Shown here in pieces: positions 21,128-37,940 of a DNA stretch of 38,497 nt (the stretch's first letter is position 1; each line of letters starts with the position of its first letter). Source of the stretch: an uncultured marine group I thaumarchaeote (GTDB taxonomy: Archaea > Thermoproteota > Nitrososphaeria > Nitrososphaerales > Nitrosopumilaceae). The translations under genes and the position numbers were made by a program. The stretch spans positions 1-38,497 of the forward strand of contig CACHDH010000003.1 in the NCBI GenBank assembly GCA_902578515.1, read 5' to 3'. The notes beneath the pieces are model-generated. The model was given only the letters and a program-made list of their open reading frames with translations, ran no database searches and had not been told where the DNA came from.

Positions 21128-21895
21128 TTACACATATATGATATATTTTTGTTCGATTAATCTATCAATTATTTCATCAACGTCTTTTGCAATACTTCCT
21201 TTGTATTTGATACCCAACTCAAGATTTCGTTCTAGAGCACGACCAGTCAGATTTGCTGATGTTATCAAAATTTGATTAGAATCAACAACCCATGCTTTTG
21301 CATGAATTTTACCATTATACGTGTAAATTCTTGGAAATGCTATGATGTTTTTCCAATATTGCATAAAGTATTCTTTTATTGTCAATTTCTTCTTTTTCCC
21401 AACCCTTTTCTTTTTGTCTGCCTCATTAAAGATAATTCTAATTTTTACATTACGTTTTTTTGCTGCCGACATTAAAGATTCTATAATCTCTTCCACATTT
21501 TCTTCATCCCACAACCAATAACCAATTATTGTAATGGTTTTTTTCGCAGAGTTTACCATTTCGTGTATTACAGGTGCTGTATTGTCAGCCATTTCGTTAA
21601 AAATAGGGCCAGACCATACTAATCTAACATTTTTGGAAAACTTGTGTTGTTCTCGTTCAAGTTCTTTTAGCAATTCTAAATTCATTAAAAATGCTTCTAC
21701 ATCAGAAACCTTCTCGAGTATTTTCTTTACATAAGCAAATTCCTCTGATGTTAGCTTTAGTTTTGATTTAATTGTAAAAATATCATTTGGTTTTAAAATT
21801 TTCTTTTTTTCTAAGAGTAACTTTAAAGAATGTAATTTTTTGTCTGGGATATGTGTTAAAATATTTTCCAGATCAATTCTAGTTATTTTTTTCAA
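21128..21895 (-). CDS. drmC: Phospholipase D-like protein, DrmC-like (DISARM)
   Basis: 255 aa; single HKD motif GKIHAKAWVVDSNQILITSANLTGRALERNLELGI; position next to drmB. Confidence 0.75.
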   Translation of the reverse strand: MKKITRIDLENILTHIPDKKLHSLKLLLEKKKILKPNDIFTIKSKLKLTSEEFAYVKKILEKVSDVEAFLMNLELLKELEREQHKFSKNVRLVWSGPIFNEMADNTAPVIHEMVNSAKKTITIIGYWLWDEENVEEIIESLMSAAKKRNVKIRIIFNEADKKKRVGKKKKLTIKEYFMQYWKNIIAFPRIYTYNGKIHAKAWVVDSNQILITSANLTGRALERNLELGIKYKGSIAKDVDEIIDRLIEQKYIIYV

Positions 21896-21897
21896 CT

Positions 21898-23823
21898 TTA
21901 CTCAGAAACTATTTTTTTAAAAAATCCACATTCTATGTTATTAATAGTCCATCTATCAAGTAAATTATTAAAATTTTCACAACTTGTTTCTGGTAATAAG
22001 GTGCAAGAATAACAACTAGAACCACCCATATTACTAGTTATGATTCCTGCCTTCTTAATTTTCTCTGGATTATTTTCAAAACACATAGGATCACGTGAAC
22101 ATCTGGTTGATTGTTTTATAGAATCTTTGAGTATCTTCAAAAATCGTTTTCCCTCACCAATTCTTACTAATCCACCCAAACTTCCTTGCGAAGAAACACT
22201 AGATGTATACAACATTACACCATTAGTGTTTTTTGAATGGTATATTCTCTCTTGTATATCCCCTTCATGGTATCCAGATCCCATTGAAAGTTGACGTACG
22301 AGTAAATGGGATAACGTATGTAACAAAACATAACGTGGATGAGAAAATGTATCTATAATATATTCACTTTTAGATCTTTTTTGTTTTTCCACTGATGTGA
22401 TATAGTTTTCACGCAAGCCCTCAAATCTTTCTTTTACTTTCTTTTGTTCTTCCCATTCTCTTAATTTTTTCTCGTTTAAACTAAAGAAAATTCCTTCTCC
22501 ATTGTTTTGTACTCCTGGTAACCATGTGATAGGAACAGTATTTCCAGTGGGATCTTTTCGTGAACCTGGAGATATTGGTCGAAACTTCTCATTTTTCTTC
22601 GAAAATTCCTCTGGTGCAAATGGATCTGGTGGTTTTCCCCTCGTAAATCCTCGCAAAACCTTGATTTCTGTAATTCGATTAAGTTTTTTCAAAAAGTCAA
22701 AATATTCTATAAGATCACCTTCCAGAGAAACTGGTTCAACATCAATTCTCGGATCATCAATACTCGGTTTAATCAATCTAGTTTTGATATTTTTAAGATC
22801 TGCAAATTCAACGTCAAGAACATTTTTTAAATCAGCTGTTTCATCGGGAATTTGTTCGTATCGTAATTCTAGTTCTTTTTTTATTTCATCAGCAGAAAAC
22901 TCTTCAAGAAGTTTTCCAAACACTGTAGGTTTTAATGAGTTGATTATTTCGTCAAAGCTTTGGCCATTTTCTCTTAATACTCTAACTGCAGTATCTGATT
23001 GCCCCTGTTTATCTTGTAATGCATCATGTACAGGATGAATCCAACTTGGAATTGATAATGCACTTGAGACAGATGGATAATAAATAGAAGATGCTCTTGT
23101 CTGAACGCCATACGGTGTTTCACTGCAATTTTTCTCCTGAGATTTTCCTGATTGTCCTAACCATGGTTGTTTAGCATAACAAGTATTGAATCCTAAATCA
23201 CGTCCTAATACTTTTTTATCTGTAGCTCCTGCGCAAGAAGCAATGGCATTACAATGTAAACACCTTACTTTGTAGTCACCCAAACCTGAACTCTTCCCTG
23301 ATGATCTGAAAGTTAATTTTTCGCTCTCTTTAGATTCCTTACAACCACCCTTATTTTTTTTATCATGTTTATGTGCCCATCTATTCCAAGGAAAATCATC
23401 TATGTGTCCATTATCACAAATTTGCACAAATCTTGCATGATAAAGATGCTGCTGCCCACTCTTTCCCCATGAACAAAATCTGCAGTAAAATCCACCGCCC
23501 TTATTTGTTGATTCTTTGGAATGCTTTTGTAGTCTGTTACATGCTGGATTGGGGCATACACCATATTGTGGAAATGAAATACATGGAACTGCAGCATCTC
23601 CTTTTATCGTCATTGGCATCTTAAAGAAAGTTACATGAAGAAGATTTTGTAAATATGGATGGTTGATCTCCTGGAAATATTTTTTATCATCTGTGTTTTC
23701 CTGCCATTTGTGTAATCCCATTAGCATTATTGCATCATGTTCCATGTTTATGATAGAACCTGGACCAAATGTTGTAATAATTTGACTTGGGCGTAATTTT
23801 CCTGGCTCAACCATTATCATCAC
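21898..23823 (-). CDS. drmB: DUF1998 protein, DrmB-like (DISARM)
   Basis: LLHTLSHLLVRQLSMGSGYHEGDIQERIYHS...GVMLYTSSVSSQGSLGGLVRIG...CSRDPMCF...GGSSCYSCTLLPETSCENFNNLLDR DUF1998 signature; N-terminal RPSQIITTFGPGSIINMEHD. Confidence 0.82.
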   Translation of the reverse strand: MMIMVEPGKLRPSQIITTFGPGSIINMEHDAIMLMGLHKWQENTDDKKYFQEINHPYLQNLLHVTFFKMPMTIKGDAAVPCISFPQYGVCPNPACNRLQKHSKESTNKGGGFYCRFCSWGKSGQQHLYHARFVQICDNGHIDDFPWNRWAHKHDKKNKGGCKESKESEKLTFRSSGKSSGLGDYKVRCLHCNAIASCAGATDKKVLGRDLGFNTCYAKQPWLGQSGKSQEKNCSETPYGVQTRASSIYYPSVSSALSIPSWIHPVHDALQDKQGQSDTAVRVLRENGQSFDEIINSLKPTVFGKLLEEFSADEIKKELELRYEQIPDETADLKNVLDVEFADLKNIKTRLIKPSIDDPRIDVEPVSLEGDLIEYFDFLKKLNRITEIKVLRGFTRGKPPDPFAPEEFSKKNEKFRPISPGSRKDPTGNTVPITWLPGVQNNGEGIFFSLNEKKLREWEEQKKVKERFEGLRENYITSVEKQKRSKSEYIIDTFSHPRYVLLHTLSHLLVRQLSMGSGYHEGDIQERIYHSKNTNGVMLYTSSVSSQGSLGGLVRIGEGKRFLKILKDSIKQSTRCSRDPMCFENNPEKIKKAGIITSNMGGSSCYSCTLLPETSCENFNNLLDRWTINNIECGFFKKIVSE

Positions 23824-26800
23824 CGCTTACGCCATAATCTTTGATATAGTATGTAGATACTTCTGATTCTGCTTCTCTTAATGACTCTGGTATAACAAAT
23901 CCCTGCGGATTATAATCTCTAGAACTGTTAAGTAGATAAACTTCATCTTTGGGTGCATCACGTCGTTGATACATTGGTCGTCTGTATTTCAATTTGATTG
24001 TTCCATTATGATGTTTAGTTGATAAGCTATCCCATCTGTTTACAAAACTATCTAGCTGTTTCTCTGTTTCTTGTTTTTCTGATGGATCCAAAAGTTCTAC
24101 TCTTGCTAAAATTTTTGCCTTAATATCATCAACAAGTTTAGAAACATCAGGATCTTTACGATGAAACCGTTCTGGATTCTTAGCGAGAAGGCAACTTTCT
24201 AGTCTTATCAATGCGACAAATACTCCAAATAGTCCTCGATCTCTTGCTCTTGCTGAGAATGGAGTAAGTGTTCCTGGTTCAACTTCTTTATGAAACGTTG
24301 TATGGAAGTGTAAGAAATTTTCAAAATATGATAAATCTCTTGATTTGGTATAAGTGTAGTTAGTAACCACAAGACCAGGGTACTTTCTGCCAACTCTTCC
24401 TGTAGCTTGAATATATTCAGATGTAGAACCTGGTTGCCCATTAACTAAAAGTACAGATAATCTATCGATATCCACTCCCACTGATAACATGTTAGTACAT
24501 AGTAAAGCATCTATCGCTTCATTCTTACTGTCTAATTTTTTTCCAACTGCTTCCAAAGTTTTTGGAACATCGAAATGACTAATTCTGCCAGTAAGTTCCT
24601 TTACTGTAAGATTTGTATCTTGTTTTGGTTTTGTTTTTTCATATGTATTGATAATAGTTTTAATAAAATCAGGTATAGAGTCATCATACATTCGTACGGA
24701 AGCGCCCAAATTTTTGATAGTGTTATAATATTCAACTAAAGTATAGTAGGGATCAAGATCATCATCGGAAAACGAATAATCTTTACCTTCAAAATTATAT
24801 TTTGATTTCATTTCTCTAATTTGTCTGATTTTTCTTAATACGGTGGCAGCTATTCTTGCATCAATAGTATAACCACCAACAGAAGTAGCACAAATTCCTG
24901 CGTAAATTTTTCCTGGGTTCTTAGGACTCACAGGTAAAATTTCTGCAAAGAATGAATCTCCGAATCTGTATCCTTGTGATGGAAAAATCTTTGTTTCATT
25001 CTTGGCAAACAAGTGACTAATTTGATCAGCTGATTTTTTTGTTGTAGCTGTTGATGCAATTATTTTTGGTCCAATACCATCTTGCTCACATAGTGCAGAG
25101 ATTGCAGTCTCATATAATCCAGTTAAAGTTCCCAGTGGGCCAGAAATAAGATGTAATTCATCTTGTATGATCAAATCTGATTTATCTATTCCTTGTGGGA
25201 GGGGGATTGTTTCAAATGGTGATCTTGTTCCATCCTTCCAACCAACTGCATTATGATTACAACCTCTCGCGTTTCCAGGTCTAAATGCATCCTGTGCACA
25301 GTATTGGTTAACGTTACCAAATAATGATGAATATCTGTAATTCCAAGAAATTTGTGCAAATTTATCTACGGTAGAAATCAGCAATGAGGGGCAAAAATTT
25401 CTTATGTCATCATCAATGAAAATGACCGGTAGATATCTATCATTATCACCAGGTTTACCGAAGAAACAATCCTTATGACACTTTATTCTAATTCGTTTAG
25501 GTCTAAAGTCTTCTGGATTAGTCTCAGATGGTTTTTGCTCCTCAAATTTGTAATTATGAGCGTCCAGTTTTCTACCACAAGAAGGGCAGCTCAAAAGTAT
25601 TACAGGATTTTCTGATTCGTATACTGTACCTTTTCGCATCCATTCAATTCTCTCTGCCGCTGCAGCAAAATCATTAGGAGTGGTAGCTCTTCCTACCCAT
25701 AAACCAACAAAAAATGGCGAATTGCCAAACTTTTTGCGGTTTTCTTTCTTCCTCAGTCGAATACGTTCACATGCACACATTAATGCTGACGCACGTTGGA
25801 ATTGTTGTAAAGTAAGTAATCTGTATGTATAACGCATAATTACTGTGATCCCATATCGGGCAAATTCTTCTTCAAATGTTTTAGCGTCTTTTTTTAGTAA
25901 ACGACGCAATGCCATCGTAAATGCAATAATGCCAAAATAAGCTTCAGTTTTTCCACCACCAGTAGGAAACCACAATAAATCAACCGTCTTTCTATCCAAT
26001 GACTTTGGGTTGTAAATTGATTCGATGTTTAGTAGAATGAATGCTAATTGAAAAAGTCGCCAAGATGGTCTATCTTTAGGATTATCAGTCTCAGGTTCAT
26101 CTCTTAGAACTTTACCGCCACGTTCCCGATTTTCTTGTGCCCATTGACTGTAAATTCTTTGTAAATACATTGCTTCATTTGCAAAGCGAAATGCTTCTGC
26201 AGCATCAGCGTTCTCAGAAATTATTTGAATTCCATTACTAATTCTTTGTTTTGCGTCTAGACAATTATCAATTTGATGTTGTGGAATATCAAAATCATCA
26301 ACAAAAATTGGATCTACATTTTTTTTATCTTTTGTTAAGTCATTAATCCAATCAGAATACTTTTCCACAAGCGGTTCAAGGATCTCTTTATACTTACTAG
26401 AATCTTGGACTTCGTATAAAATCCTCATATCCAATAATTTTTTAATTTCTTCTGTTGGTTCCCTAGGCTTTATTTCTGGCACAGTGTAAGTTGGGAAGAA
26501 TGTAGTTCTAACCCATGATCTTTTGTTATCTTTATCATCTTGATCCCAATCCACAGAACAATTATGACCCTGTGCAAAATTATGTTCATCTTTAAACAAA
26601 AATGTGGTGATTCTATCTTCTGGATCATCAGGGAGACTATCTTTTTCAATTTTAGTAAAGTTAAGAAAGATCTTTTCTGAATTTGGAGATGACAACTCCA
26701 TTTCTGGATGAAAAATACAATCGAAATCCTGAGTAAATTCCCCTTCTACAGTTTCTTTTTCATTTGTGAGAAATATACTAAGTGATGTTTTATCATCCAG

Positions 26801-27373
26801 TAATTTGATTTGATATTTTACATAACAATCATCTTTTATTTTGAGTGAGGAAAACTCTTCATCTGTATCGACTAATTCTATAGATTTTGTTTCATTGGTT
26901 TCTTCTCTTATCCATTTTTCATATCTTTCTCTGCCTGTCTTGGTTTCTTGTTGTTTTGGTTCTTCCTTTTTCTTTTTTGTATTAGAATTATTTTCTACTT
27001 TATCATCTTTTTTTTTATCATCTGTACCATGATAAATTCCGTATTTGATTTTAATATCAATTGATTTTGTACCTGGTAAAAGATAACATGTTAATCCCAT
27101 CGAACTTGGCTTAGTATCAAACTTTAGTGCAGTTTTATCAGCACTATCATCATTCTCATCATTCTCGTTTGAAGAAGTTTGAATATCACCTTCAACTATA
27201 TCATCACTTTCATCCAATGGTGTTCGCTTTGGATACAAAACACCACTAAAGTAGCGGCTTTGTGGTCGTTCAAAATCAACAAATTCCTCCTCTTTTTCAC
27301 GTGGACCAATAGAATCCTTCTTTATAGCATCGATGAGAATTTCTCGTAATTTGAGTGTGTTTTCCTTATTCAA
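23807..27373 (-). CDS. drmA: Large SF2 helicase, DrmA-like (DISARM)
   Basis: LLWFPTGGGKTEAYFG (Walker A), DLIIQDELHLISGPLGTLTGLYE, CTNMLSVGVDIDRLSVLLVNGQPGSTSEYIQATGRVGRKYPGLVV; 17-nt overlap with drmB. Confidence 0.82.
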   Translation of the reverse strand: MNKENTLKLREILIDAIKKDSIGPREKEEEFVDFERPQSRYFSGVLYPKRTPLDESDDIVEGDIQTSSNENDENDDSADKTALKFDTKPSSMGLTCYLLPGTKSIDIKIKYGIYHGTDDKKKDDKVENNSNTKKKKEEPKQQETKTGRERYEKWIREETNETKSIELVDTDEEFSSLKIKDDCYVKYQIKLLDDKTSLSIFLTNEKETVEGEFTQDFDCIFHPEMELSSPNSEKIFLNFTKIEKDSLPDDPEDRITTFLFKDEHNFAQGHNCSVDWDQDDKDNKRSWVRTTFFPTYTVPEIKPREPTEEIKKLLDMRILYEVQDSSKYKEILEPLVEKYSDWINDLTKDKKNVDPIFVDDFDIPQHQIDNCLDAKQRISNGIQIISENADAAEAFRFANEAMYLQRIYSQWAQENRERGGKVLRDEPETDNPKDRPSWRLFQLAFILLNIESIYNPKSLDRKTVDLLWFPTGGGKTEAYFGIIAFTMALRRLLKKDAKTFEEEFARYGITVIMRYTYRLLTLQQFQRASALMCACERIRLRKKENRKKFGNSPFFVGLWVGRATTPNDFAAAAERIEWMRKGTVYESENPVILLSCPSCGRKLDAHNYKFEEQKPSETNPEDFRPKRIRIKCHKDCFFGKPGDNDRYLPVIFIDDDIRNFCPSLLISTVDKFAQISWNYRYSSLFGNVNQYCAQDAFRPGNARGCNHNAVGWKDGTRSPFETIPLPQGIDKSDLIIQDELHLISGPLGTLTGLYETAISALCEQDGIGPKIIASTATTKKSADQISHLFAKNETKIFPSQGYRFGDSFFAEILPVSPKNPGKIYAGICATSVGGYTIDARIAATVLRKIRQIREMKSKYNFEGKDYSFSDDDLDPYYTLVEYYNTIKNLGASVRMYDDSIPDFIKTIINTYEKTKPKQDTNLTVKELTGRISHFDVPKTLEAVGKKLDSKNEAIDALLCTNMLSVGVDIDRLSVLLVNGQPGSTSEYIQATGRVGRKYPGLVVTNYTYTKSRDLSYFENFLHFHTTFHKEVEPGTLTPFSARARDRGLFGVFVALIRLESCLLAKNPERFHRKDPDVSKLVDDIKAKILARVELLDPSEKQETEKQLDSFVNRWDSLSTKHHNGTIKLKYRRPMYQRRDAPKDEVYLLNSSRDYNPQGFVIPESLREAESEVSTYYIKDYGVSGDDNG

Positions 27374-27425
27374 GAGATCATTGAAGATGATTTAGAACTG
27401 TATAAGATTTTAGCTTATTTTCAAA

Positions 27426-28364
27426 TTAAAAGTGTAATTTTTTATTTTTCACTTTGATATTTTCTGGTAACTTCCAAATCACATGAAGATTTTTTGTGTG
27501 AACATAATCATCCCATAATTTTGTAATATCATCAGCTTGTCGTAAACTTTCTAATCTTTTTTCAATAAGAGAGACATTATCATTATCAAGTTCAATTCCA
27601 ACTGATTGGCGCTGAAGTTGTTTTGCAACTACAAGTGTAGTACCAGTTCCTGCAAAAGGATCAAAAACCAGATCGTTTACTTTAGTTGAAGATAGAATTA
27701 TTCTTGTCAAAAGAGCTACTGGTGATTGCTGTTTGTGTGCTCTCTCCGCAACACGTACCGTAAAATCTCCTTTATTACATTTTTTACACTTAGGGAATGT
27801 TTGTTCTCCAATTTTTCTATAAGGTTCATGGCCAGCAAAATATCCTGCAGTAAGCTCCCGTATATCATCCCAAACATCAGTTAGCATCATACCATTTTTT
27901 CTGCGGTATCCTAATTCGGAATGACTCTTAGCATAGGGAGGATCAATTCGTAGTTTATTGAATACGTGAGGTTTATCACCTTTAGTTGCATATGCTATAA
28001 TCTGATAATGTTTTGCATACCTAGTTCTACCTGGAACAGCAGCAGATTTTTTTCTCCAGATGATAAGATTTTGAAAAGTCCAGCCTGACTTTGATAATGC
28101 TTGTAATACAAAGCTGGTATTTTTCTCTCTTTGCATAAAGTAGATTGCCCCACCGTTGGCTGTTTTTTGATAAATTAATTTACAAACGCGTGTCAGCCAA
28201 TTCCAATAATCATCTTCAGACATGTTATCATCGTGACTGTTGTATTCTTTGCCCTGATTAAATGGAGGATCAAAGAATGTCAGATGTATTTTTTTTGAAA
28301 AATTACTTTTGAGGGTTTTTTCGCAATCATCTTTTATAATATCACAAAGAAGTTTGTTTTCCAA
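27426..28364 (-). CDS. Beta-class DNA methyltransferase (N4-cytosine or N6-adenine)
   Basis: Motif IV FDPPFNQGKEY precedes motif I VFDPFAGTGTTLVVAKQLQRQSVGIEL, i.e. beta-class circular order. TTG start. Confidence 0.9.
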   Translation of the reverse strand: MENKLLCDIIKDDCEKTLKSNFSKKIHLTFFDPPFNQGKEYNSHDDNMSEDDYWNWLTRVCKLIYQKTANGGAIYFMQREKNTSFVLQALSKSGWTFQNLIIWRKKSAAVPGRTRYAKHYQIIAYATKGDKPHVFNKLRIDPPYAKSHSELGYRRKNGMMLTDVWDDIRELTAGYFAGHEPYRKIGEQTFPKCKKCNKGDFTVRVAERAHKQQSPVALLTRIILSSTKVNDLVFDPFAGTGTTLVVAKQLQRQSVGIELDNDNVSLIEKRLESLRQADDITKLWDDYVHTKNLHVIWKLPENIKVKNKKLHF

Positions 28365-28374
28365 TTTTAATCAT

Positions 28375-29661
28375 CTAAACTTTCTTTGCCTGCCTTATAA
28401 TTTTCTCTAAATATTTTCTGTAAATCTTGGCGTCATCTTCGATCTTTTCTCTTATTATATGCTCTAACGTAGATTCATCAATTTTCATATCAGCGTTTTT
28501 CAAGTCCTTCATCACATTCTTCTTTTCCTTTTCCATAAGTAAATCGATGAATGATCTACTGTCTTTGAATTCAGATTCGTACTGTTTTTTGGCCTCATCT
28601 ATTATGGTTTTATCTGAGACGACCGTAATTGTTTCAGTATTTGCCCTCCACTTATCAAGCGTTTTAGAATTTCGAATTCCTAAACCTATTTTATTTATAT
28701 TAACAGAACTTACTACAACTCGTTTATTTGTAATAACCAATTTTCCATGAATATTTTTTTTTGGAATACCTACATCTATCCCTAATGAGATCATATTTTG
28801 AAAAATTGAATTAGTTCTGGATTGAAAATCTGCACTAATTCCTGAACTGAGTAATTTTATTTCCTTGCCTTTTTGCTTTTGATTAATAAGAAACTTACCA
28901 AAATCATCATCAGTTAGTGTCTCTGAGGAAATAAATGCAAAATTGGATTCCTCAATTATTTTTTCTAGGTAACTTCTAGCTCTGCAATCAAATGGTGATA
29001 TGTACAATCCATCATTAATGGTAGAAGGTTCTTGACAAATTTCACCTGGATAATCCCGTACCCAATGTTCGCGTAATTCTTTATTTTTTACCCTTTCTTC
29101 AGGCTTTAATAAAATTGGAATTTTTTCCTTAGGATATTTTTTAGCATTTTCAATTAATGAACTAATCTTATTACTAGGATCTGAGAAATTTTCAATCAAC
29201 CAATCAAATTTCTTATTATATAACTGGATTTGCCTATCATTTTTTTCGAAAATTAATAATGCATCTAATTCATCTTCATCAAGAAAATTTGCAGATAGTG
29301 TGATTGCAGATTTTTCCGTTACAGCAAATTTTCCGTGAAAAGAAAACCAAGAATCTGGATATACATTTGTGCTTGTTCTAAGTGGAGAACCAACATTCCA
29401 CCAACAAAGGTAGATTTTGGCACCAAGTTTCTCTATTTTTTCAAAGTTCTTCCTAACACTTTCAAAGATTTTTGGTTTTACACTTTCATGTGGCAGTGTA
29501 AAAACTTCAATTTTTACACCTTGTTCGAGTTTTCTCTCTAGTAATTCAAAAACATCATCTCGATGAATTTGAAACATAGCAATCCTGATGTATTTCTCAG
29601 CTCTTTCCAACTCACTGAGAACATTATCAACAATTTTTGTACTATACTCGAATCTAATCAA
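28375..29661 (-). CDS. Two-HKD phospholipase D-like protein
   Basis: 428 aa with two HxK motifs: FHGKFAVTEKSAITLSANFLDEDELDALL and IHGKLVITNKRVVVSSVNINKIGLGIR. TTG start overlapping the upstream stop by 4 nt. Confidence 0.78.
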   Translation of the reverse strand: MIRFEYSTKIVDNVLSELERAEKYIRIAMFQIHRDDVFELLERKLEQGVKIEVFTLPHESVKPKIFESVRKNFEKIEKLGAKIYLCWWNVGSPLRTSTNVYPDSWFSFHGKFAVTEKSAITLSANFLDEDELDALLIFEKNDRQIQLYNKKFDWLIENFSDPSNKISSLIENAKKYPKEKIPILLKPEERVKNKELREHWVRDYPGEICQEPSTINDGLYISPFDCRARSYLEKIIEESNFAFISSETLTDDDFGKFLINQKQKGKEIKLLSSGISADFQSRTNSIFQNMISLGIDVGIPKKNIHGKLVITNKRVVVSSVNINKIGLGIRNSKTLDKWRANTETITVVSDKTIIDEAKKQYESEFKDSRSFIDLLMEKEKKNVMKDLKNADMKIDESTLEHIIREKIEDDAKIYRKYLEKIIRQAKKV

Positions 29662-31043
29662 TTAAGATCGTATTTTTTTCCTATCTCTACTGTTGTAATC
29701 TTATCTGTAACTTTCTTGTATGCATCTGGATTTTCTGTATGAATTGGATAAAGCATCTTGGCATCTATTCCTTTTACAATCTCAAGTAGGTCATTTCCCT
29801 TAGAATGGCCAGAACAATGGCTTTGAATTCTGTTTAATCCAAAGTGGTCTAGCCACATATTGACTCGTTTCTGGTCAAAAACTCCTTCATCATTGAATGG
29901 CTCACTAAGAGAATGAAGATAGAGAGCTCCAGGAGTTGGCTTTATGTCAATCAGTGCACCAAAATGCCAAAATGAAAATGCACATAATGACCTGTTTTGC
30001 CGCTTTACGATGTCTTCGGCTGTTGTAATGTTGGAGCCAGTTAGATATTCCTTCTCAAATTTTTTCCAAGATGATTTTTTTGGTGCAAAAATTTCAATAT
30101 TTTCATCATCAGGCTTTGGTACATTTAGCTGTGGATCCTTTGAAAGATATTCTAGATATGCCGCATCCTTAACATCAACTACGAACTTTCTGTCATTTTC
30201 TTTTGCAATGTTGTAAAATGTTCGAAGCCTATCCATATCTTTGAAATTAAAATCAGCAATTGCAAGCTTGTCTGATTTTGAGACATGTTCATTGCACTCA
30301 CTGTAAACTTTAGCCTCAGACTCGTCAGTTTCTAGATCATCAATTCTGGTCCCTTCTGCTAAGAGAGCGATTGGTTTTACCTCAATTGCTTTTTTGACAA
30401 AATCTTCTGTCATTTTTGGATTAGTACCATGTAGCCGAATGTCACCGGTGTAAACTACAGGACCAGACGATGTGTATATGATAAATCCATATGCACCTGG
30501 GACGGAATGATCAACATGAATTGGTTCCACTTCTAATGAACCAATTTTGAACTTGTCACCGGTTCGGAATGTGTTAATGTCTCTGTCAATCGGCTCTGCC
30601 TTTTTGTCATGCCTTGGCTTGAAGGATAAAATCTCCCGCTCAAAAGTTCTAGATGATCTACGCTCAATTGCCTCTAAGATTAGTTTGCAAGTTTCGCCCA
30701 TGTAGACAGGAATGTCTTCGTGTAGAAATGAGATGTAATCAGCATGATCAGCATGTGCATGGGTTAACAATACAGCGTCAATGTCAGTTTCTGTGTCTGT
30801 TCTTTCCATCATTTGTAAAAGGTCTGTTCGGTAAACTCCTTGCAGGTCGGGAAGTAAGCCCATCTCGAAAAAATCTTTCATACCAGTGCTTAACCTCGGA
30901 CTCATAAACTCGTCAAAATATGCACCTCTTTGAGAAAAGCTCTTACCAAAATCTAAGAAAACCTTGGTATCCTTGTCTTCTAGTAGGATTTTGTTTCCTC
31001 CAATTTCATTTACACCACCATAGAAAGTTAAACTAGTCATCAA
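29658..31043 (-). CDS. MBL-fold beta-CASP/RNase J-like nuclease
   Basis: FYGGVNEIGGNKILLEDKDTKVFLDFG, LLTHAHADHADYISFL (motif 2), EPIHVDHSVPGAYGFII, VVYTGDIRLHG, CSGHSKGNDLLEIV, LYPIHTENPDAY. Confidence 0.85.
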   Translation of the reverse strand: MMTSLTFYGGVNEIGGNKILLEDKDTKVFLDFGKSFSQRGAYFDEFMSPRLSTGMKDFFEMGLLPDLQGVYRTDLLQMMERTDTETDIDAVLLTHAHADHADYISFLHEDIPVYMGETCKLILEAIERRSSRTFEREILSFKPRHDKKAEPIDRDINTFRTGDKFKIGSLEVEPIHVDHSVPGAYGFIIYTSSGPVVYTGDIRLHGTNPKMTEDFVKKAIEVKPIALLAEGTRIDDLETDESEAKVYSECNEHVSKSDKLAIADFNFKDMDRLRTFYNIAKENDRKFVVDVKDAAYLEYLSKDPQLNVPKPDDENIEIFAPKKSSWKKFEKEYLTGSNITTAEDIVKRQNRSLCAFSFWHFGALIDIKPTPGALYLHSLSEPFNDEGVFDQKRVNMWLDHFGLNRIQSHCSGHSKGNDLLEIVKGIDAKMLYPIHTENPDAYKKVTDKITTVEIGKKYDLN

Positions 31044-31087
31044 ATAGAATATGAGAATCTAATACAAAAACAAGATCTTAGTAAAAT

Positions 31088-31127
31088 AGTATCTACAGTA
31101 TGCATACTATGTCTTTGATATTTAATA
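31088..31127 (+). promoter_or_regulatory. 40-bp palindromic operator-TATA element, copy 1
   Basis: AGTATCTACAGTATGCATACTATGTCTTTGATATTTAATA; core AGTATGCATACT perfect palindrome; TTTAATA box ends 25 nt before ATG 31153. Confidence 0.75.
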
Positions 31128-31152
31128 GATTTATTCCAACTAATATGGTAAT

Positions 31153-31443
31153 ATGGAAAAAGAAAACAACTCGAAGATTGACAAACTTGAAAAATGTGTC
31201 ATACGACAATCACAGGAAATCAGGAAACTAAAGAAAAAACCAGAAAGAAGGATGACGGAAATGAAGTTTGTCGGTGTAATATTTGATCCAGAAAAATACA
31301 AAAACGGCGAGAACGAAATCAACAATGCATTAGCCAATGGCTTTGAAGTCTTACGTGACTTTGAGACAGGTGGTGGAATTGTAATAGCACTTGGAAAATG
31401 GGTGAAAAAAGACGAGAAGGTGAAGAATGGATGGACCAAATAA
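31153..31443 (+). CDS. Hypothetical coiled-coil protein
   Basis: 96 aa; MEKENNSKIDKLEKCVIRQSQEIRKLKKKPERRMTEMKFVGVIFDPEKYKNGENEINNALANGFEVLRDFETGGGIVIALGKW. Confidence 0.6.
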   Translation: MEKENNSKIDKLEKCVIRQSQEIRKLKKKPERRMTEMKFVGVIFDPEKYKNGENEINNALANGFEVLRDFETGGGIVIALGKWVKKDEKVKNGWTK

Positions 31444-31688
31444 AAAATGTCTCTATAGATTCAAGGAAAAAGTCTCTAATAGAAACAACCCTCGATATTT
31501 TTTTAGGATTTGTAATGTTTCTACCAGTAAATTACTTTATTCTTCCATTATTTGCAGAAATGATAGCAGAACATAGCATTTTGGCTGCAATTCAGATAGG
31601 TATGATATTTTCTGGAATCTCACTTGTTCGTAAATTCGCTATTAGACGTTGGTTTGAAAGAATGAGAGAGGAAGTTACAAAAGTTTAA
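31431..31688 (+). CDS. Small two-TM membrane protein
   Basis: In-frame with ORF 31398..31688; internal ATG at 31431 (MDQIKNVSIDSRKK) reduces overlap; two hydrophobic helices. Confidence 0.6.
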   Translation: MDQIKNVSIDSRKKSLIETTLDIFLGFVMFLPVNYFILPLFAEMIAEHSILAAIQIGMIFSGISLVRKFAIRRWFERMREEVTKV

Positions 31689-32431
31689 AGTAAAAATTCA
31701 GAGGCATAGTTTCCATCGTCGGTTAGCTTTAACCATCTGTTTCTTCCTATCTTTTCAACCTCAACAAATCCCCACGTATCTACCAGCGGTTGTACAATAT
31801 TCTTGTCCAGACTTGCAAAGCGTGCCTGAGTAAAGTTCTGTTTCCTTGCATTAACAATTATAATCTTACTCTTCTCGGCCTCCTCGGCCATCTGCTTTTT
31901 CTGAATGCGGCCGCCTGCATTTTTTATTATCCTTATAGCATCTATCAGTTCAGGTTTTGGTGTTCCAATTCTATATGTAGGAAGTGGATGTATCTCGGCC
32001 ACCCCATATGTTTGCTGTAAAGTTCCATCATATTCAGGATATTTTTCTGCCTGTGCGTAAAATGGATGTATTTTTTCCCTGTCATCAAACATCATGCAGG
32101 CCATCATACATCCTATGGAATGAATCTTGGAACCACTTGCAACGTTAATGTAGATCTCATTTTTTCTCTCCTTGATAATTATCTCTGTGACAACTTTGAT
32201 AATTGGAAAAAGTCTAAGCCTATTGGCATAGGCGATCTCAGTCTTGATTCCATTTTTTTCCAGCTGCTTTACAATATTTTCCCGATATTTTACTGCCTTG
32301 TCTTCAGAAACATTATCATGTGCAATCAGCCAAACCTTGTCTGCTTTTTGCTCAGTTGCAGGAATTATTATTCTGTCAATCTCAAAACCGACAGGGGCTA
32401 TATGGATACGGAGGTTTACCATGTTCTTCAT
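31685..32431 (-). CDS. CARF-like (DUF6293/HFX_2341-type) + C-terminal wHTH transcriptional regulator
   Basis: Track ORF 31685..32482; likely ATG at 32431. LRIHIAPVGFEIDRIIIPATEQKADKVWLIAHDN...IYINVASGSKIHSIGCMMACMMF (CARF-like N.aSGsK) and C-terminal IRIIKNAGGRIQKKQMAEEAEKSKIIIVNARKQNFTQARFASLDKNIVQPLVDTWGFVEVEKIGRNRWLKLTDDG wHTH. Confidence 0.72.
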   Translation of the reverse strand: MKNMVNLRIHIAPVGFEIDRIIIPATEQKADKVWLIAHDNVSEDKAVKYRENIVKQLEKNGIKTEIAYANRLRLFPIIKVVTEIIIKERKNEIYINVASGSKIHSIGCMMACMMFDDREKIHPFYAQAEKYPEYDGTLQQTYGVAEIHPLPTYRIGTPKPELIDAIRIIKNAGGRIQKKQMAEEAEKSKIIIVNARKQNFTQARFASLDKNIVQPLVDTWGFVEVEKIGRNRWLKLTDDGNYASEFLL

Positions 32432-32434
32432 AAT

Positions 32435-32474
32435 AGTATCTATAGTATCCATACTATGGCTTTGATATTTAATA
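32435..32474 (+). promoter_or_regulatory. 40-bp palindromic operator-TATA element, copy 2 (intergenic, divergent)
   Basis: AGTATCTATAGTATCCATACTATGGCTTTGATATTTAATA; 37/40 identical to copy 1; TTTAATA box ends 23 nt before ATG 32498. Confidence 0.75.
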
Positions 32475-32497
32475 ATTTTCATACATTATTCTTTTAG

Positions 32498-32806
32498 ATG
32501 GCAGTTAGCAATTGGATTCTCTACATTGGGGTTTTTCTCTGCGCCACAGGATTTGGCGTAGTAATTGGTGCAATTTTCATTTTTTATTGGGGTATCAAGA
32601 AATTAGAAGAGGCCAAGCAAGGTAATTCTTACACTGAAAACTATACTGAAAATCACTTTACAGCTAACATAGATCACTACCACGCAGGTGATGATGGTTC
32701 CGATACTGATGATTGGCGTAAATCTGCAACACCCATACATGGTGCTGTTGGTGAAGACGTTCCAAGAGAATATCTCTCAAAAGATACACGGGAGGAAAAT
32801 CGATGA
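32498..32806 (+). CDS. Membrane-anchored small protein (single N-terminal TM)
   Basis: 102 aa; MAVSNWILYIGVFLCATGFGVVIGAIFIFYWGIKKLEEAKQGNSYTENYTENHFTANIDHYHAGDDG. Confidence 0.6.
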   Translation: MAVSNWILYIGVFLCATGFGVVIGAIFIFYWGIKKLEEAKQGNSYTENYTENHFTANIDHYHAGDDGSDTDDWRKSATPIHGAVGEDVPREYLSKDTREENR

Positions 32807-32817
32807 AGTGGACAAAC

Positions 32818-32857
32818 AGTATCTATAGTATGCATACTATAGATATGATATTTAATA
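32818..32857 (+). promoter_or_regulatory. 40-bp palindromic operator-TATA element, copy 3
   Basis: AGTATCTATAGTATGCATACTATAGATATGATATTTAATA, containing a 26-bp perfect palindrome at 32820..32845; TTTAATA box ends 23 nt before ATG 32881. Confidence 0.8.
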
Positions 32858-32880: not shown

Positions 32881-32928
32881 ATGAATTCAAAAAAAATAGA
32901 GAAAGAAAAACTGGTGGATTGTAGATGA
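32881..32928 (+). CDS. 15-aa leader peptide ORF, ATGA-overlapping the next gene
   Basis: ATGAATTCAAAAAAAATAGAGAAAGAAAAACTGGTGGATTGTAGATGA = MNSKKIEKEKLVDCR*; first ATG after the copy-3 TATA-like box. Confidence 0.5.
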   Translation: MNSKKIEKEKLVDCR

Positions 32929-33344
32929 GTACCTGCACAGTTTGCCAGAAAGATAGCAAGAAACACAGTCAAAAACTGTGGGAATTGCACAAGCAGGTAA
33001 CAATATGCGAGTTTTGCTTCAAATCAAGCAGTACCCATACAGAAGAACTTTGGGATATGCATCGAAGAACTGTAGAGACCGCTAAGAGCAAAACAAGACA
33101 CAAGAAGTTATGGACTATGCAAGTTGGCTTTGGGCCAAAATGTCCGGCATTGCTTGACAATAACTTCAGCTACAACAGCAAGTTGAACATGGCTGAATGG
33201 CTGACACCAGTCTATATGTCATGTACTGACTGTGGACTTTTCCTCGGTAGCATTGAGACAGACCATGCAGATATGCTGGGTGGAATGTGTCTGAAATGTT
33301 TCATGAAAGCGACGGATCTAACAGGTTGGGGGTATGGTGAATGA
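32925..33344 (+). CDS. Zinc-ribbon protein with three HxxxLWxM[HQ] repeats
   Basis: CTVCQKDSKKHSQKLWELHKQVTICEFCFKSSSTHTEELWDMHRRTVETAKSKTRHKKLWTMQVG ... CTDCGLF...GGMCLKCF. Confidence 0.65.
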   Translation: MSTCTVCQKDSKKHSQKLWELHKQVTICEFCFKSSSTHTEELWDMHRRTVETAKSKTRHKKLWTMQVGFGPKCPALLDNNFSYNSKLNMAEWLTPVYMSCTDCGLFLGSIETDHADMLGGMCLKCFMKATDLTGWGYGE

Positions 33345-35625: not shown

Positions 35626-36600
35626 TTGTTAGATGCAATTAAAGAAAATCCTTACTATTCACCCAGAATTAGGATGGCAATTGTTATGGCTAAAAGACTG
35701 AAGAGGGATGAACTTTTTGTAAAAGATTTAGAAAGTAAGCTTACTGTGGCAATAAGCGAAGAGCGCAAACAAAGTGAGGAAGAAAATAAAGAAAAATTTG
35801 AAGAATATCAAAAACAACAAGAAGAACGTAAACGAAAGCGTGAGATTGAAGAGGAAGAAGAAGAAAGAGAAAGAAAGGAACGTAAACGAAAGCGTGAGAT
35901 TGAAGAGGTAGAACGAAATGAAAATGCTCAGAAATCATCCATAAAAAAAAATTGGGATTTATTCTTTATTACTCATATAGATAATCTACCCCACATTACA
36001 AAAGATGGAATAGTGGCACCAAAAATTAGACCGAAATATTACAAAAAAATTGCTGACGAAAAATTAGCTAGCATCCGTAATGATAAAATTATTGCAAATA
36101 GTAGATTAGCAGCAGAATATGCTCATGTCTACTTTAGACCAGATAATGCAATGTTAACTGCTGTATTAACTCGCAAAGGTTTTAGACTAAACGAAATTGT
36201 AATAATTAGAATTAAAATCGACATAACTGAACATGAACTATACATGACTGATCGAAATGCGTATTATTATGATAGTAATGATCCTCGCTTTATTCCTTCG
36301 AACAGATATATGGAAATTATTCCCAGGATTGAATCGATGATCAAAGAAGATGGTTGGAATCAGAGTTGTGATGAAGAAATGAAAAAGAAATTTATGGCCG
36401 AATGTCATATTCTCTATAAATTTCCACTAGACTCTTTGAAAGCTATTTGTATAGCTGATAAACAGTCGATTAAAAATAGAGGATATAATTTTGCAGAGTT
36501 TTATGATAATGTAAAGAGCAAGATAAGTAGAGGGTCAATATTAACAGAAGAAAATATTGAAGAACGTAGAGAATTTTTCTTTAAAGGTAGATATGGCTAA
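35626..36600 (+). CDS. darT: DarT-like (DUF4433) DNA ADP-ribosyltransferase toxin with N-terminal charged coiled coil
   Basis: LFFITHIDNLPHITKDGIVAP, AHVYFRPDNAMLTAV, IKIDITEHELYMTDRNAYYYDSNDPRFIPS; followed by DarG. Exact start uncertain (TTG 35626). Confidence 0.82.
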   Translation: MLDAIKENPYYSPRIRMAIVMAKRLKRDELFVKDLESKLTVAISEERKQSEEENKEKFEEYQKQQEERKRKREIEEEEEERERKERKRKREIEEVERNENAQKSSIKKNWDLFFITHIDNLPHITKDGIVAPKIRPKYYKKIADEKLASIRNDKIIANSRLAAEYAHVYFRPDNAMLTAVLTRKGFRLNEIVIIRIKIDITEHELYMTDRNAYYYDSNDPRFIPSNRYMEIIPRIESMIKEDGWNQSCDEEMKKKFMAECHILYKFPLDSLKAICIADKQSIKNRGYNFAEFYDNVKSKISRGSILTEENIEERREFFFKGRYG

Positions 36601-37141
36601 TTCACATATTTCCCTAGAAGATAGTAATATTTTCTTTACAAATCTTCAAACTATCATCATTACCGTAAACTGTGTAGGGATAATGGGTAAGGGTATAGCA
36701 CTTCAAGCAAAGGATCTTTTTCCTGACGCTTTTTTGTATTATAAAGATCTGTGTGATAAAGACAAAATGAATATGGGAACACCTGTTCTTTATGATAAAC
36801 CATCAAAGACTCTTCAGACTACTGATAAAGAATACAAAAAATTACTTCTCTTTCCAACAAAACAACATTGGAAAAAGCCTGGAGACATTGTTAGTATTGA
36901 AAAAGGATTACAATGGTTGGTAGATAATTATGAGAAGTGTGGAATAAAGTCACTTGCTACTCCAGCTCTTGGCTGTGGTAATGGTGGATTAAATTGGAAA
37001 GATATTGGACCTTTACTTTACAAATATCTTGGAATGATGAATATTCCTGTGGAGATATACTTGCCCAAACAAAGTATACCTGAAAAGTACCTTGCTGAGG
37101 AATTTTTACTAACTGAACCGCCTAAAATTACTGATTATTAG
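36593..37141 (+). CDS. darG: DarG-like macrodomain antitoxin
   Basis: Track ORF 36557..37141; ATG 36593 (MANSHISLED) overlaps the darT stop by 8 nt. ITVNCVGIMGKGIALQAKDLFPDAFLYYKDLCD...LFPTKQHWKKPGDIVSIEKGLQWLV...LATPALGCGNGGLNWKDI. Confidence 0.88.
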   Translation: MANSHISLEDSNIFFTNLQTIIITVNCVGIMGKGIALQAKDLFPDAFLYYKDLCDKDKMNMGTPVLYDKPSKTLQTTDKEYKKLLLFPTKQHWKKPGDIVSIEKGLQWLVDNYEKCGIKSLATPALGCGNGGLNWKDIGPLLYKYLGMMNIPVEIYLPKQSIPEKYLAEEFLLTEPPKITDY

Positions 37142-37148
37142 GGCGTCA

Positions 37149-37940
37149 CTACCCAATCTTAATCTTGTATTTTTTTAAATCTTTTCTTAGCCGCCTTACA
37201 GAATTTCCAATGGTTTGAGGGTTCATCAAAGTAATCTCTGCAAGTTGTTTCTGTGTAATAGCATTGACATCACTTTCAGATACCAGATACAATGCTGCAG
37301 CAGCTATGCCAGTAGGATTTGAACCTGTCTCGGAACTAGGAATACGATTAAGAATTTTGATTGCTTTTCGTGAGAAAAACTCTGGCATGCTGGCCTTTGA
37401 GGCTACATATCGAACCTTTTTGTCAGCCTTGTCTAAAGGCAGACTAATCTTATGCAGTTTACAAATCTGATTAAAAATATCAATGAGTTTGTCTCTTTTG
37501 ACATTGGTTAATTCTGCAATAATGGTGGGTGACGAAGGTATTTCTTGTTCTCGGCATGCAATGTGAAGGCATGCAGCAACAAATGAGTTGGTATCTTTTC
37601 CTTTGAGTAGCTTTCTAGAATTCTTGAATAACTCCTCTGTTCTGGAGGAGATTATTTTTTGTGAGCTAACTTTTTCTGTATATACCTCTATCAATTTCTT
37701 CGCAATGACCAGTATTTTATCAAAACCTGCAAGAAATTTGGTATTTGGTGCTACCTTTTTGAATCCACTTCCCTGCTTTCCAACGGTTCCACCTAATCCA
37801 TAGTCACCTTTTTCAGCGGAATAACCAACTTCTGATGTGACCTTCTTCCATAATCCACATTTAGAGCAGGATTTTTCTCCAACAATATCGTAAACCCATT
37901 TATGATTTCCACCAACTTGGCAAGTGTCCTTTGAATCCAT
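37149..37940 (-). CDS. tfb: Transcription initiation factor IIB (TFB) paralog
   Basis: Zinc-ribbon-like N-terminus HKWVYDIVGEKSCSKCGLWKKV and two cyclin-like repeats (FVAACLHIACREQEIPSSPTIIAELTNVKRDKL; GIAAAALYLVSESDVNAITQKQLAEITLMNPQTIGNSVRRL). Confidence 0.88.
   Translation of the reverse strand: MDSKDTCQVGGNHKWVYDIVGEKSCSKCGLWKKVTSEVGYSAEKGDYGLGGTVGKQGSGFKKVAPNTKFLAGFDKILVIAKKLIEVYTEKVSSQKIISSRTEELFKNSRKLLKGKDTNSFVAACLHIACREQEIPSSPTIIAELTNVKRDKLIDIFNQICKLHKISLPLDKADKKVRYVASKASMPEFFSRKAIKILNRIPSSETGSNPTGIAAAALYLVSESDVNAITQKQLAEITLMNPQTIGNSVRRLRKDLKKYKIKIG

Follow-up and report, generated by a model that had tools for sequence, protein, structure and literature searches.

The window, a stretch of 38,497 nt from an uncultured marine group I thaumarchaeote of the Nitrosopumilaceae, carries a gene for a DUF6293/HFX_2341-type regulator with CARF and winged-helix domains, which sits between the first two of three copies of a putative operator. 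An earlier note on this DNA had described these copies as a 40-bp palindromic operator fused to a TATA box. The consensus 40-mer matched the window exactly three times, at 31088-31127, 32435-32474, and 32818-32857 as claimed, versus no match expected from 100 shuffles. The recomputed pairwise identities were 37, 36, and 35 of 40, and the perfect 26-bp palindrome reported for copy 3 was found at 32820-32845. The distances from the end of the box to the ATG were 25, 23, and 23 nt (ATGs at 31153, 32498, and 32881), which agrees with the proposed leaderless-type spacing. Copy 2 also adjoins the start of DUF6293 on the opposite strand, where the ATG at 32431 lies ~2 nt past the operator, and its TATA box probably serves both directions. 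The coordinates of all features are collected in Table 1.

Table 1. Features of the regulator region in the window and related positions at other loci
Feature	Position	Strand	Evidence or remark
Operator copy 1, 23-bp dyad	31087..31109	-	PWM 38.4 bits; exact consensus match; upstream of the 31153 gene, divergent from the MBL-DISARM genes
TATA box of copy 1, GATATTTAATA	31117..31127	+	Sequence; spacing
Putative target 1a, 96-aa protein	31153..31443	+	ATG 42 nt from operator; clusters with homologs
Putative target 1b, DUF7220 small membrane protein, same operon as 1a	31398..31688	+	PF23858, 2.1e-15
DUF6293/HFX_2341-type CARF and winged-helix regulator, 248 aa	31685..32431	-	PF19810, PF22665, CARF3, predicted Csa3-like fold
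Operator copy 2, 23-bp dyad, common to DUF6293 (-) and the 32498 gene (+)	32434..32456	-	PWM 36.0 bits
TATA box of copy 2, GATATTTAATA	32464..32474	+	Sequence; conserved upstream of orthologs
Putative target 2, 102-aa protein, predicted N-terminal membrane helix	32498..32806	+	ATG 40 nt from operator
Operator copy 3, dyad inside 26-bp perfect palindrome	32817..32839	-	PWM 34.6 bits; reverse reading 26.0 bits
TATA box of copy 3, GATATTTAATA	32847..32857	+	Sequence
Leader ORF of putative target 3, 15 codons	32881..32928	+	ATG 40 nt from operator
Putative target 3, 139-aa Cys/His-rich protein	32925..33344	+	ORF; look-alikes behind operators in L122, L124, L126
DISARM-type defence cluster	21128-31040	-	DrmC 1.1e-32, DrmB 2e-73, DrmA 2.5e-226
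DarTG-type toxin-antitoxin pair	35674-37141	+	DarT-like PF14487, 1.6e-18; DarG-like macrodomain, 4.6e-49
TFIIB-repeat (TFB-like) paralog, accessory region of the window	37149-37940	-	
TFIIB-repeat (TFB-like) paralog, accessory region of L126	7352-8179	+	
ITNSQIITLGKYHT micropeptide loci	L106 7686; L108 4450; L109 2160; L131 5683; L152 6470; L156 3923		
RNase H-like gene	L128 5728; L134 18771; L136 9714; L145 9245; L154 6238		

The regulator matched HFX_2341_N (PF19810) with an E-value of 1.5e-36 (125.9 bits, cut-off 30) and the DUF6293_C winged helix (PF22665) with 8.7e-21 (74.7 bits, cut-off 27), and was assigned to CARF3 by PADLOC (1.2e-70). It missed the threshold of Csa3_N (PF22662), scoring 22.5 bits against a cut-off of 27. 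A profile search of PDB sequences gave no match. The AlphaFold2 model had a mean pLDDT of 89; in Foldseek the best PDB match of this predicted fold was cA4-bound Csa3 (6wxq, E 1.3e-7), followed by other CARF proteins. The motif SGSK of the ligand loop is kept in DUF6293 orthologs. The same two Pfam domains and a Csa3-like prediction were described for HFX_2341/Crr of Haloferax mediterranei, a transcription regulator that some species possess without having CRISPR (PMC11434293).

Within the window's own genome (690 kb in 58 contigs, 58% complete), no further operator copy was found, and a fourth match was copy 3, readable on both strands, in its reverse reading. The local three-promoter regulon of the earlier note is correct in outline but incomplete, as the element is conserved across Nitrosopumilaceae. 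Upstream regions of ~75 DUF6293 orthologs, in which the counterpart of copy 2 is kept at the same position, share a 23-bp imperfect dyad, TAGTATG-N9-CATACTA. Nitrosotalea lacks the inner palindrome GCATAC, which is dispensable. The 26-bp palindrome, real as it is in copy 3, occurs in that copy only and was rejected as the conserved unit. With a PWM of the dyad, 222 matches above 15 bits, which include overlapping both-strand readings of one site, were obtained in 1.11 Mb of fetched loci chosen for carrying the regulator or the motif, versus none in the reversed sequence.

The presence of the operator was scored with a 48-nt profile in 250 Nitrosopumilaceae genomes, mostly MAGs or single-cell assemblies. 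The operator occurred in 110 and DUF6293 in 112 of the 250, with 98 carrying both (odds ratio 73.5, Fisher p = 1.8e-39, phylogeny ignored); since the sites are phylogenetically related and the counts not independent, the p-value indicates a strong association only. Twelve genomes had an operator and no DUF6293 match, including G034 and G147 (both ~99% complete), whose operators may be remnants or under the control of another regulator. Fourteen had DUF6293 without an operator, the protein there being mostly a distant paralog or a fragment. Copies per genome ranged from 1 to ~10, some lying on other contigs or up to ~18 kb away. The motif search across genomes proposed by the earlier note thus revealed no random spread, and the shuffles, the reversed-sequence control, and the co-occurrence indicate that the operator is a real, non-random element. 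Viral contigs held neither a DUF6293 relative nor an exact operator match, and viral carriage of the two was rejected.

The covariation of palindrome and regulator, which the earlier note had suggested examining in relatives, was also observed, as the operator differs or is absent where the recognition helix differs. Nitrososphaeraceae orthologs (45-47% identity) have the helix SLNKN instead of SLDKN, and the TAGTATG dyad is absent from their upstream regions. In a paralog clade (~33-36% identity) the helix reads KHSQLRAIL, and in most members the start is immediately preceded by GTTAA-N5-TTAAC or a near variant of it. Such a pairing of helix change with operator change is in line with what is expected for a cognate protein and site. 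Together with the strong co-occurrence, it makes the DUF6293 protein the likely binder, as the earlier note had proposed, and the three copies are very probably its docking sites. At L209, L210, L212, and L213, this distinct palindrome or a near variant lies directly upstream of a distant DUF6293 paralog, apparently forming a second autoregulated circuit.

Target proteins across the sites fell into ~20 sequence clusters by a crude short-sequence clustering that merged some families. Most are tiny and unstudied, and micropeptides are the commonest. Micropeptides of 23-44 aa with YPRIIREFDDxDEPMxYG or close variants were found in most genera, whereas Nitrosotalea and its relatives have another type of 22-25 aa, with YPKVKSVFEDN or a near variant at the end. 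Both families look genuinely coding, because their diversity was 0.31-0.40 at codon position 3 versus 0.07-0.11 at positions 1 and 2. Other targets are a 30-aa NSQIITLGKY peptide, PIN-domain proteins (PF01850, 2.7e-6), zinc-ribbon-like proteins, small DUF7220 membrane proteins, and secreted coiled-coil proteins. For the genes of the window, homologs of target 1a are operator-driven, judged by position, in L102, L103, L125, and L127, and those of target 1b stand directly behind operators in L124, L126, and L127. The stop of the leader ORF of target 3 overlaps the ATG at 32925 of the zinc-finger-like gene. A UvrD-PDDEXK helicase-nuclease follows a micropeptide in L134, and a helicase of this type is found directly downstream of DUF6293 in L117. 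The regulator is near genes that read by eye, with no profile, as HerA, Mre11 and/or Rad50 in L114, L118, and L134. A second conserved micropeptide family of ~30 aa (ITNSQIITLGKYHT) was seen behind operators with a CATGTTTCTTAATAC box.

At five loci, the flank facing away from the target holds an RNase H-like gene (PF13482), which begins 40-49 nt from the operator. ORF starts on the DUF6293-like side of the other sites showed no clear enrichment (18 of 56 versus 24.6% at random positions), and a general control of genes on this side was rejected there.

The promoter geometry differs between the two directions of copy 2. Toward DUF6293 the order is TATA, operator, ATG, with the operator over the expected start site, a repressor position; toward the divergent gene it is operator, BRE/TATA, ATG, an activator position. 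The activator-type placement upstream of the TATA box claimed in the earlier note was hence seen on the target side. Of 130 sites picked by operator score alone, 118 have a rule-chosen start codon on the target side at a distance of 37-42 nt from the operator, 111 of them at 39 or 40 nt. Promoters that are not shared with DUF6293 often have a degenerate TATA box (TTTCTTAATA, TTTCATAATA), whereas shared promoters retain a good one, TATATAATAATT; core-promoter strength was judged here by the TATA box. In Pyrococcus furiosus, the palindromes of TFB-RF1 and CopR likewise adjoin BRE/TATA from upstream at a conserved distance, and CopR represses its own gene while activating targets (PMC5937170, PMC7830388). 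Their sensor domains are unrelated to CARF, and here a single operator serves both sides of a divergent promoter.

Archaeal activators typically combine a fixed spacing with a weak core promoter, and, given the self-repression of CopR, we favour a CARF regulator that represses itself and activates leaderless promoters of small genes, with a probability of about 0.66. A DUF6293 dimer would bind the 23-bp dyad. At its own promoter the bound regulator, between TATA and start codon on copy 2, would block RNA polymerase. At copies 1 and 3, and in the other direction of copy 2, the operator abuts BRE/TATA from upstream, ~40-63 nt before the presumed leaderless start, and the bound regulator would most likely help TBP/TFB onto a presumably poor TATA/BRE, thereby activating the small target genes. 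The CARF domain would gate the regulator by a nucleotide-like ligand other than the cyclic oligoadenylate of type III CRISPR. We infer binding, dimerisation, the sign of regulation, the leaderless TSSs, and the ligand from sequence, activation of the targets being read from geometry.

The same protein might instead repress in both directions, blocking TFB from its place beside the BRE, with the ligand relieving both regulator and targets. We consider this unlikely. The operator edge does meet the expected BRE position, the operator does span the DUF6293 start site, and over-expression of HFX_2341, mainly a repressor of transport and cas genes, lowers most affected genes and the cas genes (PMC11434293); but neither the tight 39-40 nt spacing over unrelated genes nor the degenerate TATA at target-only promoters is needed for repression, and both are typical of activators.

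The binder could also be a TFB paralog or an unlinked regulator, with DUF6293 merely one of the targets. Family-wide co-occurrence, the change of the operator with the DUF6293 recognition helix, and an autoregulatory site at the DUF6293 start in nearly all orthologs make this quite improbable, although TFB paralogs lie in the same region in both the window (37149-37940) and L126, and a few operator-bearing genomes lack DUF6293. It is hardly credible that the copies are a dispersed repeat or mobile-element end with a TATA-like sequence and no regulatory meaning. Three copies within 1.8 kb of an accessory region, and copy clusters among small genes of no known function in some relatives, would suit such a repeat, but the start-codon distance is fixed over unrelated genes, one copy lies at the DUF6293 promoter in most genomes, and viral contigs lack an exact match. 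A random or mobile repeat was rejected on spacing, the reversed-sequence control, and co-occurrence.

Related systems are known among CARF regulators. Csa3a and Csa3b of Sulfolobales, which share the CARF and winged-helix architecture and include the best PDB match, can activate or repress according to the promoter, and Csa3a has been proposed to activate via TFB recruitment to a non-canonical TATA box (PMC8844856, PMC7480081). Csa3b of Sulfolobus raises nurA-rad50-mre11-herA. MM_0565 of Methanosarcina mazei binds at its own promoter and, apparently, activates a large number of genes; it yielded no distinct motif, and its targets are different (PMC7465815). The HFX_2341 study described neither a binding site nor autoregulation nor a micropeptide target, in contrast to the predicted operator and targets here, and its authors call for ChIP-seq to find the sites (PMC11434293). 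For the DUF6293/HFX_2341 CARF family, neither a DNA site nor direct targets were reported in the open-access literature searched, in which the HFX_2341 study was the sole paper to mention the family, and the novelty of the operator is provisional.

Several candidate signals were considered. Csa3a and Csa3b are tied to type I/III CRISPR loci and cA4, whereas the Cas10 palm domain was found in none of 47 near-complete DUF6293 carriers. Judged by this domain, no link to a cA4-making CRISPR system was seen, and the cyclic oligoadenylate of type III CRISPR was rejected as the signal. Cyclic di-AMP, suggested for HFX_2341, was also rejected, as a diadenylate cyclase was present in only 1 of 24 carriers. 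SMODS cyclase matches were weak and lay in frames of ~450 aa that are probably CCA-adding enzymes, and this source was rejected as well.

It is possible, if rather doubtful, that the regulator heads a CRISPR-free CARF pathway of ammonia-oxidising archaea, in which a nucleotide signal would lead to leaderless micropeptides (YPRIIREFDDxDEPMxYG and relatives), PIN nucleases, and helicase-nucleases, and maybe to the MBL-DISARM genes via copy 1. If so, the whole would amount to a stress or antiviral circuit whose effectors are micropeptides. The results provide a DUF6293-family site predicted to the base in very abundant archaea, together with a putative regulon that includes conserved micropeptides of uncharacterised function, and they make it testable what CARF regulators respond to, and bring about, where type III CRISPR is absent.

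Copy 1 occupies the sole gap that separates the MBL-PLD-methyltransferase-DrmA-DrmB-DrmC genes, which point leftward, from the rightward 31153 gene, and the MBL start lies ~43-46 nt from its operator; a control of the divergent MBL-DISARM cluster by copy 1 may be taken as a lead only. Besides the three Drm genes, this cluster comprises a methyltransferase that is type II-like, another PLD protein, and a protein of the MBL fold, and the MBL gene adjoining the DUF6293 region recurs in L122 and L126. In L126 the TFB-like gene is convergent with DUF6293 and stands in a row behind the operator-driven DUF7220 gene.
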